Positions 41,376 to 46,700 of a stretch of 64,000 nt of DNA are shown here, in pieces (the first letter of the stretch is position 1; every line of letters begins with the position of its first letter). The translations under genes were made by a program, and so were the position numbers. The notes beneath the pieces are model-generated. The model ran no database searches. It had not been told where the DNA came from and saw only the letters and a program-made list of their open reading frames with translations. This stretch comes from Nitrosopumilus cobalaminigenes (GTDB lineage: Archaea > Thermoproteota > Nitrososphaeria > Nitrososphaerales > Nitrosopumilaceae): NCBI RefSeq assembly GCF_013407145.1, contig NZ_CP026993.1, positions 1,386,590 to 1,450,589 on the forward strand, written 5' to 3'.

Positions 41376-44027
41376 TTATCCAGAAGTACAACCACTGTAT
41401 CCACATTCGATACAGGTACTACATCCTTCAACAAAGACAAGAGCATTTTTACATGTTGGACATAGTTTGTCCTCAGGAAGTTCTTCAATCTTTGGAGGTT
41501 CTAGTGTTATTTCTTCGTCATGAACCTTTAATGCAAGTGCAGCATTGACTTGAGATTTGATGTATGGATTTGTAATATTTTTAGTTACAAACTCAGTCAT
41601 GAAATCACTTGGTGTAACCTCAAAGGTCTTTGTTGCATTCTCACTTGTCATATGAAGAACTTGTTTGTGTCTTGAACCATCACGATAAACAGTCATTCCT
41701 TTTAGACCAATTTCATGTGCTAACAAGTATGCAGATTTTACATCCTCTACTGTTACATCATATGGCATGTTGATTGTTTTTGCAATTGCATTGCCAATCC
41801 AATCTTGCCAAACACCTTGAGCCATCAAATGATCAGCCCAATGGATATCCATTGCGGTAACAAAGACATCTTGCATCCATTGTGGAATCTCGTCTATTCC
41901 TTTCAATGAGCCATAGTTATCTGCAATCTTTTCAAGAATTTCATCTGTGTAGAGACCTTCTTCTTTTAGGGCTTCTTCAAGAATTTTGTTTGTGTAGAAG
42001 AATCTTCCAACAGTAACTCTCTTCTCAAACACTAGAGCAAATGCAGGTTCCATTCCGTTTGAACAGTCTGCAATCATAGATAGGGTTCCAGTTGGGGCCA
42101 CTGTGGTTGTTAAGACATTTCTAATACCATATTTCTGGATTTTTTCAATCAATGGATCCCATTCGTAAGAATGAGCATCTTTTGATTTCTCATAATATCC
42201 AGATACTGGAATCTTTCCTTCAGGGAATTCTGTCTTTGCACAGAGTGGGAATTCACCACGAGCGTTAGCAAGTGCGACACTTTCTTCCATAGAATAGTAT
42301 GTTAGGGCTTCAGATAATTTTGATTGTAGTTCGTATCCTTCTTTAGAATTGTATGGGATTTTTAGTCTGTATAACAGATCAGCTACTCCCATTACACCTA
42401 ATCCAATTCTTCTAGATTCTTTAGATGCAGTATTGATTTCTGGTACTGGATAATTATTTACATCGATGATGTTATCCAAGAATCTGGTTGTCTTTCGGAT
42501 AATCTCTTCATATCCTTGCCAATCAAATTCATAAGAACCATCAGCTTGTCTTTTTGCAAGATTTACCAAGTTGATAGAACCCAAGTTGCATGATTCATAT
42601 GGATAGAGACTTTGTTCACCACACGGATTTGTTGCTCTTAGTGGTGCTTTTCTTGCTTTTGCAAATACATTGTATTTGTTAATTTGATCAAAGAAGATCA
42701 AACCAGGTTCTGCACTCTTCCATGCAGATAATGCAATTAGATCAATTAGTTGGTGTGCATTGATTTCTTTAACTGGTTTTTTATCACGTGGACTACGTAA
42801 AACATAGTTACCATCAGTTGTGTTTACAAGTGCATGCCAAAAGTCTTCCCAGATTCCAACACTAATGTTGAAATTCTCTAAAACTCCTGCTTCTGTTTTG
42901 TTTGTGATGAATTTTTCTACATCAGGATGCCATGCTTCGATGATTCCCATGTTTGCACCACGTCTTTTACCACCTTGTTTTACAACTTCAGTGACAGTAT
43001 TGATAATATTCATGAAAGATACTGGACCGGATGCAACACCAGATGTTGATGCTACAATGTCACCTTCTTCACGAAGATCAGAGTAGTTGATTCCAACCCC
43101 ACCGCCAGATTTGAAGATTAATGCAGCATCAGAAGTGGATTTCATAATTTCCTCCATGCCGTCATTCATTCCAAGTACAAAGCATGCTGAAAGTTGTCCT
43201 AGTCTTCCACCTGCATTCATCATTGTTGGTGAATTTGGCAAAAAGTCTTGGGCAGTCATCATTGTAAAGTATTCAGTAATTTTGTCTGAATAACTTTCAA
43301 GTTTTTTTCCTGCTAGAAGTGTCAACAAATCTTTGAAACTTATTTTCATTTGACCTTTGTTGGCTAGGGTTACATAGTGGTTGATTAAAGCCCTAAAGTG
43401 CCATTTATTGAAGAAGTAATCTCCGACTTTGAATTTATAGTCAAAGGCATCTAATTTTTCAAGATAAGAGTTTGCTTGTTCAATGTCTTGTTTATGACTA
43501 CCAGATTTGTCAAATATTTGTGAATCATATAGCATGTCACCAATACCGACTAAAATTGCAACTCTCTCAAACATTTGAGTTGGTGATTCAATAATTTCAC
43601 TTTTTGAATTTCTGAATAGATATCTAGAGGCTAGAACTCTAAGACAATTCAAGTCAAATTTCTTTGAGACTGGATCTAGAGCCTTTAGATTTAAGACCTT
43701 CATTTTTTCGTCTCTTAGTTTTCTTCTCTCATGTCGGTAAACGATGTATGCTTTTGCAATATCGCTATTGCCACTATCGATTAAAGTTGACTCTACAATA
43801 TCTTGAATATCTTCAACTGTAGGTGCTCTAGAACTAGTAAATCCTTGTTCTACTAACTTGTTAACTACATCTTCTGCTAGTTTGTCGGCAACGCCACGAT
43901 CGGCTTTAGAGGTGGCTGCCAATGCCTGGTAAATGGCATTTGAAATTTTATCTTTATTGAAAGCCGTAACTACGCCACTGCGCTTACGGATCTCACTGAT
44001 CGTATTTTCTATTTGTGAATTATCCAT
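41376..44027 (-). CDS. nrdJ: Adenosylcobalamin-dependent (class II) ribonucleotide reductase
   Basis: Reduces ribonucleotides to deoxyribonucleotides using coenzyme B12. I take ATG 44027, giving 883 residues; an ATG at 44129 adds a poor leader. Visible are the ATP-cone (SGVVTAFNKDKISNAIYQAL...), LSACFVLGMNDGM, the ATNPCGEQSLYPYESCNLGS catalytic region, TTTVAPTGTLSMIADCSNGM and a C-terminal zinc ribbon CPTCKNALVF...CIECGYSGC. The cobalamin operon at 7-11 kb makes its cofactor. The gene downstream of a 232-base region is the ATP-cone pseudo-NrdD protein, a likely partner. Confidence 0.96.
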   Translation of the reverse strand: MDNSQIENTISEIRKRSGVVTAFNKDKISNAIYQALAATSKADRGVADKLAEDVVNKLVEQGFTSSRAPTVEDIQDIVESTLIDSGNSDIAKAYIVYRHERRKLRDEKMKVLNLKALDPVSKKFDLNCLRVLASRYLFRNSKSEIIESPTQMFERVAILVGIGDMLYDSQIFDKSGSHKQDIEQANSYLEKLDAFDYKFKVGDYFFNKWHFRALINHYVTLANKGQMKISFKDLLTLLAGKKLESYSDKITEYFTMMTAQDFLPNSPTMMNAGGRLGQLSACFVLGMNDGMEEIMKSTSDAALIFKSGGGVGINYSDLREEGDIVASTSGVASGPVSFMNIINTVTEVVKQGGKRRGANMGIIEAWHPDVEKFITNKTEAGVLENFNISVGIWEDFWHALVNTTDGNYVLRSPRDKKPVKEINAHQLIDLIALSAWKSAEPGLIFFDQINKYNVFAKARKAPLRATNPCGEQSLYPYESCNLGSINLVNLAKRQADGSYEFDWQGYEEIIRKTTRFLDNIIDVNNYPVPEINTASKESRRIGLGVMGVADLLYRLKIPYNSKEGYELQSKLSEALTYYSMEESVALANARGEFPLCAKTEFPEGKIPVSGYYEKSKDAHSYEWDPLIEKIQKYGIRNVLTTTVAPTGTLSMIADCSNGMEPAFALVFEKRVTVGRFFYTNKILEEALKEEGLYTDEILEKIADNYGSLKGIDEIPQWMQDVFVTAMDIHWADHLMAQGVWQDWIGNAIAKTINMPYDVTVEDVKSAYLLAHEIGLKGMTVYRDGSRHKQVLHMTSENATKTFEVTPSDFMTEFVTKNITNPYIKSQVNAALALKVHDEEITLEPPKIEELPEDKLCPTCKNALVFVEGCSTCIECGYSGCTSG

Positions 44028-44037
44028 TATAATCTCC

Positions 44038-44225
44038 CCGACAAGGGTAGAATGAATAGAGGTATAAACTATTTGTCGGTTTTTCCTAAAACTTTGATTC
44101 AATAAAATTGACAACGCTCCAATTTGCATTGGATCGGGTTGAATACATTATGAAGTTCATATTTGTACAGCATTGATAGTAGTTAACAATGATCGCGAGA
44201 TCTGAAACTGATCAAAATATTTTGA
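44038..44225 (-). promoter_or_regulatory. nrdJ upstream region with inverted repeats
   Basis: The 232 bases between the NrdD-like stop and the nrdJ start contain CCGACAA/TTGTCGG arms at 44038-44044 and 44073-44079, and a perfect 14-bp palindrome TCAAAATATTTTGA at 44212-44225. CTGATCAAA at 44209-44217 also appears, on the opposite strand, in the region upstream of the HTH/NrdD-like gene. These could be binding sites for a dNTP-sensing regulator, but AT-richness makes chance palindromes common. Confidence 0.4.
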
Positions 44226-44259
44226 AAAATGATCGGAACTAGTTTTTCATTTACGATTT

Positions 44260-46428
44260 TCAGACAACGTATGGTGACTTACACTTTGGGCACTTGTCAT
44301 CAAACTGCTCATCTTTGAAACCACACTCACCACAAATGGCTGTATGTCTTGTTGGTTTGAAAGCAGGTGTGAGTTCTGATGCTTTCTCAATTGATTTTTT
44401 GATATCCTCAACCTTTGCATCTTTGTCAATATCTAATGTTACAAGTAACCCACCATTGAGTAATTTTGAGAGCTTGTTACATTCGGAGATAGGCTCACTT
44501 TTGTTAGTATAATCAGAAACTTCTGAAGCATTGATGACAATTCCCTGAGAATAGAAATCAGCGTCCATTGAATTTAGAGATGAATTTTTACCATATTTTT
44601 CGCCATCCAGAGTAGCAAAACGGCCAGATCCTTCAGTTTCAGTCATAGAAATAGCCACTGTGTCGCCTAATTCTTTGCCTTTTTTGGCACCTACATCAAC
44701 TGCAGTCTCAATGACTTTATGAAGTATATCTCGTCCTTCTTTGTTATCTTGGAAACCTAGAATATTGAAAACTGCTTCTTTGAGTCCAACCAAGTTTACA
44801 ACGAGAGAAACAGAACTTCTTTGCATGTATTGAGTATTCTTTGCAAGAATTGGATTAAGACCTCTTCTTGTAAGATCAGAGATCTCTTTCTTTCTTAGTG
44901 CCATTGAAGCTAGTGCGGGTTTCATTAGTAATGCAAGTCTTGCTCTAAAGTAAGTTTCATCTTTGTTTGATTCAAATGCCAATCTTGGAAGATTGATTGA
45001 AACAGATTGTAAAGTGATCGAGAGAGGGCCTGATGCTTTAGTAGATCCATTTGTAATTCCATAACTTGATGTTTGACCTTTAGCAAACATTACTTTACCA
45101 CCTATGGAGAGAATTTCTGCTACTGCTTGTGAAACATCAGATACTTTTCCTTTATCAGCATCAATGATTAATCCAATCTTTGGAATTGGTGTAATTGCAA
45201 CATAATTTTTGTATGCATTAATAATTGAGTGAATGATTTTTGTATCAGTTCCCAATTGTAAACGAATTGAAACATTAGTGCTTGTTTTATTATATTTTGA
45301 AGTTGTTGATGCAGTTGCAAATGCATCTGTTAATTTTTGTTCAAGTTCTGGTAATGATTTTGAATGTTTAGTAAACAATGCAACAAAACCATCTAGTACA
45401 ATTTCTTGTGAAGCCTCTTTTGATAGTAAAGCAATAACTACAGATAATGAACTTGTAATTTCATCAAGTTGTTTTGATGCAGGAATTCTTGATACATCAA
45501 GATATTTTCCACCAAGATCAACTCCATCTTCAATTAATTCTTTAATGTTTACAAATATTGTATCAGGAATCATTGACCATACACCAGGGTTAGAAATATG
45601 TAAATCTCCAGAGAGATGAGAATCTGCCACATCCTTTGGTAAAACGTTGGTAAGAAGATGTTCTGCAAAAACTTTTTGTCCAGTATTAAACAAGAGTCCC
45701 TCAGCACCATTATCTACATCATCTAAATTAGAAATCATTTCCTGAACATCATAAACAGGCAAGCCTAGGCGTGCAAGTTTGTTCCTGTATTCCTCATGAC
45801 CGTGCTCAAGCAGAACAGAATTAACCATTTCACGGATTAATGCGCCTGTAAGATAGGTAGTTTGATATTTGTAAATTCTATTTTCAACTTCTTCAGTAAT
45901 TTTCTGTGCTAATTCTAATGGAAGACTTCCTTCTCTAACTAATGATTGAATAATTTTATGCGAATTAAATTCTTCAATTGATTCAGATGATGTTCTGACA
46001 TACATTTTTCCACTTTCAATAATTGATCTTTCTTCAATTTGTCTAGCTAAACTTAGAACAAGTTTTCCAAGATTTGTAATTGTATAACGTCTTTCTGATT
46101 TATTTAATGCAACAAGTGATTGTCTGAGTAATTTTCTCAAGTGGTATGCAAATTTGCCACTTTCTTTTTTTGATTTGAATCCAGCTAGAGATTTTAATTC
46201 TGAATAAGTTAATGGGCCTTTAGAATTTAAAATTCTCAAGATATCTATTCTGTTAGGACTTGCCATAACAGAGAAAATCATTCTCACACGTTTTGAGGTA
46301 GATTGTAAGATTCCACCTCGTTTTGGATCTGAATCATCGTCATCTAGATCTATATCGATTTCAGAATCATCATCTAGATCAGCATCTACATCAAGATCTA
46401 ATTCTAAATCTTCTTCGGTTTGTTTCAC
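44260..46428 (-). CDS. HTH/ATP-cone/pseudo-NrdD fusion, candidate nucleotide-sensing regulator
   Basis: Four parts in 722 residues: an Asp-rich N-terminal tail (1-40), an ArsR-like winged helix (45-130: MASPNRIDILRILNSKGPLT, FAYHLRKLLRQSLV), an ATP-cone (about 142-235, VRTSSESIEEFNSHKIIQSL), and a region similar to anaerobic reductase NrdD (240-690), ending in a zinc ribbon CGECGFKDE...CPKCKSPYVV. There is no cysteine between the ATP-cone and residue 660 apart from the zinc site, and no C-terminal glycyl-radical motif, so it cannot be an active NrdD. It starts at GTG 46428. A role controlling nrdJ, next door, is inference. Confidence 0.8.
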   Translation of the reverse strand: MKQTEEDLELDLDVDADLDDDSEIDIDLDDDDSDPKRGGILQSTSKRVRMIFSVMASPNRIDILRILNSKGPLTYSELKSLAGFKSKKESGKFAYHLRKLLRQSLVALNKSERRYTITNLGKLVLSLARQIEERSIIESGKMYVRTSSESIEEFNSHKIIQSLVREGSLPLELAQKITEEVENRIYKYQTTYLTGALIREMVNSVLLEHGHEEYRNKLARLGLPVYDVQEMISNLDDVDNGAEGLLFNTGQKVFAEHLLTNVLPKDVADSHLSGDLHISNPGVWSMIPDTIFVNIKELIEDGVDLGGKYLDVSRIPASKQLDEITSSLSVVIALLSKEASQEIVLDGFVALFTKHSKSLPELEQKLTDAFATASTTSKYNKTSTNVSIRLQLGTDTKIIHSIINAYKNYVAITPIPKIGLIIDADKGKVSDVSQAVAEILSIGGKVMFAKGQTSSYGITNGSTKASGPLSITLQSVSINLPRLAFESNKDETYFRARLALLMKPALASMALRKKEISDLTRRGLNPILAKNTQYMQRSSVSLVVNLVGLKEAVFNILGFQDNKEGRDILHKVIETAVDVGAKKGKELGDTVAISMTETEGSGRFATLDGEKYGKNSSLNSMDADFYSQGIVINASEVSDYTNKSEPISECNKLSKLLNGGLLVTLDIDKDAKVEDIKKSIEKASELTPAFKPTRHTAICGECGFKDEQFDDKCPKCKSPYVV

Positions 46429-46538
46429 TATTGTTCCTAAATTTAATGCAGTAAATAAGACTTGTGACTAGATTATTTGTGACAGTATTTGATCAGATTC
46501 TCTGAAAAGAGAAAAAGATCTTTAAGATGATCAATTAT

Positions 46539-46700
46539 TTATTTTTCTTGAACATCAAGTGAAAACTCTGATGTTGAAAGTTTCTGTCCACATGATGGAC
46601 ATTTTCCATTTGTTGGATTAAGTACATCTTTTAGAGATTTTAACATCTTCATGTTCGTGATCTTTTCTCCACATTTACCACATGTAATTTCTACTGACAT
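46539..46700 (-). CDS. Small zinc-ribbon protein (53 aa)
   Basis: A short gene from ATG 46700 to TAA 46539. It encodes SVEITCGKCGEKITNMKM and then GKCPSCGQKLSTSEF, a CxxC...CxxC zinc ribbon with a short helix between. Similar mini-ribbons in archaea often bind nucleic acid or act as subunits of larger complexes. It is isolated, between the HTH/NrdD-like start and the OB/zinc protein. Confidence 0.7.
   Translation of the reverse strand: MSVEITCGKCGEKITNMKMLKSLKDVLNPTNGKCPSCGQKLSTSEFSLDVQEK

Follow-up and report, generated by a model that had tools for sequence, protein, structure and literature searches.

A probable nucleotide-responsive regulator derived from an inactive class III ribonucleotide reductase beside nrdJ of Nitrosopumilus cobalaminigenes

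The window analyzed here is a stretch of 64,000 nucleotides from Nitrosopumilus cobalaminigenes (contig NZ_CP026993.1, positions 1,386,590 to 1,450,589), and all of the window features described below lie on the minus strand. An open frame with a GTG start at 44260-46428 encodes a protein of 722 residues, here called NRD (NrdD-derived regulator), in which a winged helix, an ATP-cone, a body derived from the class III ribonucleotide reductase (RNR) NrdD and a zinc ribbon are joined. NRD lies immediately upstream of nrdJ (41376-44027), which encodes a class II, B12-dependent RNR with an ATP-cone of its own; the nrdJ start at 44027 is taken from relatives, and the open frame extends to 44129. The nrdJ promoter region thus occupies 44028-44259, and that of NRD itself 46429-46540. 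Just upstream of NRD is a gene for a small zinc-ribbon protein (46541-46700, beginning MSVEITCGKCGEKI), whose place is conserved in the aligned Nitrosopumilaceae loci.

The NRD chain begins with an acidic tail (residues 1-36, 46321-46428; 19 D/E against 2 K/R) that is modeled with low confidence and varies among relatives. This Asp-rich tail is very variable in length in Nitrosopumilus-like members, with DSDLD repeats in one of them (locus L008), and is short or missing in most other members. The winged-helix domain that follows (residues 45-125, 46054-46296) is basic, with 18 K/R against 4 D/E, and its residues 51-125 match the Pfam families DUF7347 and HTH_20 (2.7e-10), with 40.8 bits against a cut-off of 27.6 for the former and 32.8 against 27 for the latter. 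No ArsR metalloregulator model matched NRD over its cut-off. The ATP-cone (residues 142-214, 45787-46005) was also found over the curated Pfam cut-off (1.6e-8), as was the NRDD family, whose best stretch (residues 467-718, 9.5e-28) falls largely within the barrel body (residues 226-694, 44347-45753); the equivalog NrdD model TIGR02487 scored 92 bits, well under its cut-off of 326. A zinc ribbon of the form C-x2-C...C-x2-C (residues 699-716, 44281-44334) is followed six residues later by the C-terminus. An AlphaFold model built from 54 homologues (mean pLDDT 84, pTM 0.71) has the NrdD barrel fold with the ATP-cone and the zinc ribbon, and its best Foldseek matches in the PDB are complete class III RNRs, led by the S. 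thermophilus enzyme (9dca, E 7.5e-23) and including those of P. copri, T. maritima and phage T4. The Pfam matches and the whole-length fold bear out the original prediction that a winged helix, an ATP-cone and an NrdD-like body are united in one protein, and the domain E-values, the 54 aligned homologues and conserved synteny together exclude chance.

The residues needed for class III chemistry were compared in an alignment of 12 active archaeal NrdDs of the same phylum with 54 members of the NRD family. The partner cysteine C182, the thiyl C394, the flap asparagines N128 and N130 and the glycyl G712 are invariant in all 12 active enzymes. NRD has T290 at the position of C182, Y456 at that of C394, and L235 and D237 at those of the Asn-x-Asn pair, which forms the active-site flap of NrdD (PMC12662201). 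Y456 lies in a much shortened, cysteine-free stretch (residues 450-470, 45019-45081) at the site of the finger loop that carries the cysteine in active NrdDs, and the chain stops right after the zinc ribbon, where active enzymes have the RVxGY loop that includes G712. C182 is lost in all 54 family members, the thiyl cysteine and the glycyl glycine are lost across them save for isolated aligned letters inside degenerate loops, and the full catalytic set is kept in none. Locus L041 offers a direct contrast, since it holds both an active NrdD, with RVTGYY, and a neighboring NRD family member, with RISAKY. The specificity site of StNrdD includes Q225 and E293 (PMC12662201), and the equivalents of both look lost in NRD in a profile alignment of moderate alignment confidence. 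Several features are retained: the zinc-ribbon cysteines in 49-50 of the 54 members, N479 in all 54, and P481 and R482, which complete an NLPR motif.

In 21 family genomes, that of NRD itself among them, no match to the activase NrdG (or NrdG2) exceeded the cut-off, and the genome of NRD holds no second NRDD locus. Judged from its sequence, the NRD body is a catalytically dead NrdD and not an active one, and the alignment confirms the predicted losses of cysteine and glycine, the lack of a glycyl-radical motif included. The accompanying claim that no cysteine occurs between the winged helix and residue 660 was correct as to a long cysteine-free span, but the first cysteine is C650; there are five in all, and the last four (699, 702, 713 and 716) form the NrdD-type zinc ribbon. 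NRD and NrdD (PF13597, TIGR02487) share common ancestry, being alike in whole-length fold, ATP-cone position, zinc ribbon and NLPR motif. They differ in that NRD is without the radical cysteines, finger loop, flap asparagines, glycyl loop and activase, and in that the N-terminal winged helix is a feature of NRD.

ATP-cones sense ATP and dATP in reductases and in the bacterial repressor NrdR. The nucleotide contacts of the NrdR cone are V48, K50, R51, E56, F58 and K62 (PMC9110341), and, matched by spacing, V144, E152, F154 and K158 of NRD correspond to V48, E56, F58 and K62. The phosphate-binding pair K50/R51 is replaced by T146/S147, so that ligand specificity and binding mode may differ in NRD; the adjoining R145 is invariant in all 54 family members, and E152, F154, K158, Y214, R215 and R220 are mostly or nearly invariant. 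Nucleotide sensing is not assured, because the K-R hairpin pair is gone and the equivalents of Q225 and E293 are apparently lost, and we regard sensing of ATP or dATP as plausible.

The likeness to NrdR is one of arrangement. NrdR, like NRD, couples an ATP-cone to a DNA-binding domain and is linked to RNR genes, although DNA binding by NRD is itself predicted. NrdR has about 150 residues, and NRD differs from it in its length of 722, in having a winged helix rather than a zinc ribbon as the DNA-binding part, in carrying a whole dead NrdD body and in the absence of K50/R51. The order that defines NrdR, a zinc ribbon and then an ATP-cone matching TIGR00244, is not that of NRD; TIGR00244 found no match in the genome of NRD and exceeded its cut-off in 4 of 101 genomes, all from one other family (f4). 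The phrase "archaeal analogue of NrdR" is therefore fair as a description of how NRD may work, and misplaces NRD if taken as family membership. A second comparison is with ArsR-like winged-helix regulators (HTH_20, DUF7347), with which NRD shares a domain over the Pfam cut-off and from which it differs by the fusion to an ATP-cone and a dead reductase. A search of the literature, outside which lay the text of the ATP-cone survey of Aravind, Wolf and Koonin from 2000, found no description of the NRD architecture. In that survey (cited in PMC11226230), the ATP-cone is said to be a mobile regulatory domain, and related archaeal architectures may have been noted there.

The family is widespread and evidently old. 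At E 1e-5, relatives match in 210 of the 300 genomes sampled from the phylum, some weak matches perhaps being active NrdDs, and 547 stretches in a species-level genome collection encode relatives; the best 80 of these are nearly all Bathyarchaeota by title, with one record labeled Njordarchaeum that may be misbinned. We read 58 NRD-family loci from about 40 families, with group names that are inferred (f1 as Nitrosopumilaceae, f3 as Nitrososphaeraceae, the deep families as Bathyarchaeia). The fusion to the winged helix, which the original prediction proposed to look for in other archaea, is conserved across archaea. In a maximum-likelihood tree, all 54 NRD rows fall on one side of a branch that separates them from active NrdDs (support 100/99), which, the tree being unrooted, is consistent with a single origin and does not prove it.

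The proximity to RNR genes is likewise conserved. NRD is directly 5' of nrdJ on the same strand in all eight of the other Nitrososphaeria loci that were read out to nrdJ (L033-L040), so that the adjacency first noted in the window holds in every such case. In a deep-lineage locus (L047) the gene that follows NRD encodes another class II RNR, of the TSCPD type, and in seven loci (L041, L085-L089 and L091) it is an active nrdD, an adjacency that could stem from tandem duplication. Many Bathyarchaeia members have no adjoining RNR gene; NRD is instead convergent with the aspartate carbamoyltransferase genes pyrB/pyrI in many of them (among L041-L049 and L095-L123), possibly an old synteny, and elsewhere with a NAC gene, and it is divergent from pyrB in L050, L119 and L120. 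In Nitrososphaeraceae, a Snf7/CdvB-like gene, recognized by a weak Pfam match, is directly upstream of NRD (L033:9530-10144, with corresponding genes in L034 and L035); this neighbor might tie NRD to cell division genes.

Selection has acted very unevenly along the protein. All 81 residues of the winged helix are the same in 31 further Nitrosopumilaceae genomes, even though 18-41 codons carry silent changes. For the three of these genomes that are most distant, identity is 91-97% in the ATP-cone, 73-77% in NrdJ and 54-64% in the NRD body. The Nitrososphaeraceae helix retains 95-96% identity alongside a body at 30-42%, and across the Nitrososphaeria families f2 and f3 the helix ranges from 79 to 96%. 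An identical helix in the face of silent changes and a diverged body indicates that selection bears chiefly on the predicted DNA-binding head and then on the ATP-cone, and this constraint is the strongest argument that NRD would work on DNA. Identity at 81 residues exceeds what a single operon should need, a hint of further targets or other contacts, and NRD probably acts at more than one DNA site.

The promoters of both genes are rich in GATC. The nrdJ promoter region holds five copies, and its intergenic part of 130 bases (44130-44259) ranks second in GATC density among the 1423 intergenic regions of the genome; the NRD promoter region, with three copies, ranks sixth. Of all 4-mers counted in 32 Nitrosopumilaceae loci, GATC shows the highest enrichment in both promoters: it occurs 106 times against 33 expected ahead of nrdJ, in every locus, and 119 times against 22 ahead of NRD, in 31 loci. 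These counts are not independent, because the loci are related. In locus L011, tandem repeat units with three GATC each lie upstream of NRD and bring the number to 10 in 160 bases. Two further elements are conserved. One is GCG[TG]TGTCAA....ATTGA (44094-44121), upstream of a TATA-like box of nrdJ in Nitrosopumilaceae and not seen in the f2 and f3 loci; the other is a TATA-like core promoter block of NRD, GTCACAAGTCTTATTTACT (46450-46468), whose placement would fit a leaderless or near-leaderless transcript.

The densest GATC region of the 1423 is the divergent promoter of the replication factor C (RFC) small subunit and GINS23 genes (contig 233478-233660), the latter followed by MCM- and helicase-like genes, of which MCM was recognized by eye. 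Its layout, GATCAAWTGATC-N22-TTGATCGATC, is fixed in 25 of 30 Nitrosopumilaceae relatives. A common operator beyond GATC was sought with position weight matrices derived from the RFC/GINS block and rejected, as these did not pick out the nrdJ promoter (ranks 267-626 of 1138) or the NRD promoter, so that only the four base pairs of GATC are common to the three promoters. When the genome was scanned with the nrdJ block, the nrdJ element itself went undetected because the nrdJ open frame covers it, and the top match (1055621) adjoins a plastocyanin-like gene and was judged to be chance. Of 1647 genes, 36 have at least three GATC within 160 bases of upstream sequence; their number is close to the chance expectation and they are mostly unrelated, and they were set aside as a gene set. 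A Dam/M.DpnII-like adenine methyltransferase gene (contig 1312227-1313087, plus strand), next to which no restriction partner was recognized by eye, occurs in 40 of 41 genomes of the family and points to methylation of GATC as a core trait among these archaea. The methylase gene adjoins amoA (1313189), also recognized by eye and part of the basis for the inferred group names; PF02461 gave no match anywhere and so is uninformative on amoA.

The best account of these features is that NRD is a nucleotide-responsive transcription regulator made from a dead class III reductase and controlling nrdJ, which we consider most likely. The basis is the domains, the fold, the catalytic loss, the lack of NrdG and NrdR, the conservation, the RNR synteny and the constraint on the helix; from it we infer DNA binding, a nucleotide response and nrdJ as the target. 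NRD would have descended from a class III RNR, and its dead body would serve as a dimerizing scaffold and possibly as a nucleotide-binding platform. The ATP-cone would sense the state of ATP/dATP or a related nucleotide, and the winged helix would bind upstream of nrdJ and of the NRD gene and alter nrdJ transcription accordingly, either as a repressor or as an activator. Given its place just before a working RNR gene, NRD is probably a switch that matches the output of DNA precursors to demand. The original prediction of a nucleotide-sensing transcription factor evolved from an anaerobic reductase thus gains from the dead body, the conserved fusion, the RNR link, the lack of NrdR and NrdG and the constraint on the head; its nucleotide-sensing part is plausible, with a ligand specificity that may differ given the loss of the K50/R51 pair.

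Other roles for the protein are less easily reconciled with these data. That NRD still reduces ribonucleotides through some unrecognized chemistry is extremely improbable: the barrel fold and N479-P481-R482 are retained, but there is no cysteine before 650, no glycyl loop and no NrdG above cut-off, and nrdJ is present for ribonucleotide reduction. NRD might instead act at the protein level, as a pseudo-subunit on NrdJ or another RNR, with the winged helix making protein or RNA contacts. The NrdD fold makes a partner role plausible, and adjacency to a class II RNR gene fits a complex as well as it fits regulation; this is nonetheless quite unlikely, since the constraint falls on a basic HTH_20/DUF7347 winged helix and not on the body that would touch NrdJ, which already has an ATP-cone of its own. 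A transcription factor that is not a nucleotide sensor, with the ATP-cone and body acting only as an oligomerization scaffold or serving another ligand (e.g. zinc, or redox via the ribbon), would fit the loss of the phosphate pair, the apparent loss of the specificity-site residues and a zinc ribbon that 49 of 54 members retain. We think this unlikely as well, given the 91-97% conservation of the ATP-cone in the three most distant genomes and its six mostly or nearly invariant residues.

The GATC clusters raise a separate question, that of their reader. They are absent at NRD and nrdJ in the f2 and f3 loci that were read, although the helix there is similar or nearly identical, which speaks against NRD in this role and makes it rather doubtful that NRD reads GATC. 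The chances are about even that the clusters are read by another factor or through Dam-type methylation in a coupling to replication, an explanation that is compatible with NRD as regulator of nrdJ. The orphan methylase and the fixed layout of the densest cluster, at the RFC/GINS promoter, agree with it; against it, the promoters that bear the clusters include those of NRD itself and of nrdJ, the alternative reader is putative, and Nitrososphaeraceae carry the methylase, yet their nrdJ promoters are not GATC-rich in the three loci read. A more ambitious proposal, in which NRD is a master regulator of ammonia-oxidizing archaea that reads the nucleotide pool and uses GATC clusters, open to marking by the orphan methylase, to set dNTP synthesis (nrdJ) together with the core replication genes RFC and GINS-MCM, combining NrdR-like and Dam-like control in one circuit, seems to us a long shot.

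For the regulation of RNR genes in archaea without NrdR, NRD, most likely a regulator of nrdJ, provides a concrete and testable candidate in an abundant group of marine and soil organisms. Genes like NRD should not be tallied as anaerobic (class III) reductases. With a conserved GATC promoter code and a core methylase, the control of replication in these organisms can be tested directly. The NRD family also shows clearly how a radical enzyme probably became a transcription regulator, one that a large lineage of archaea has retained throughout its history.
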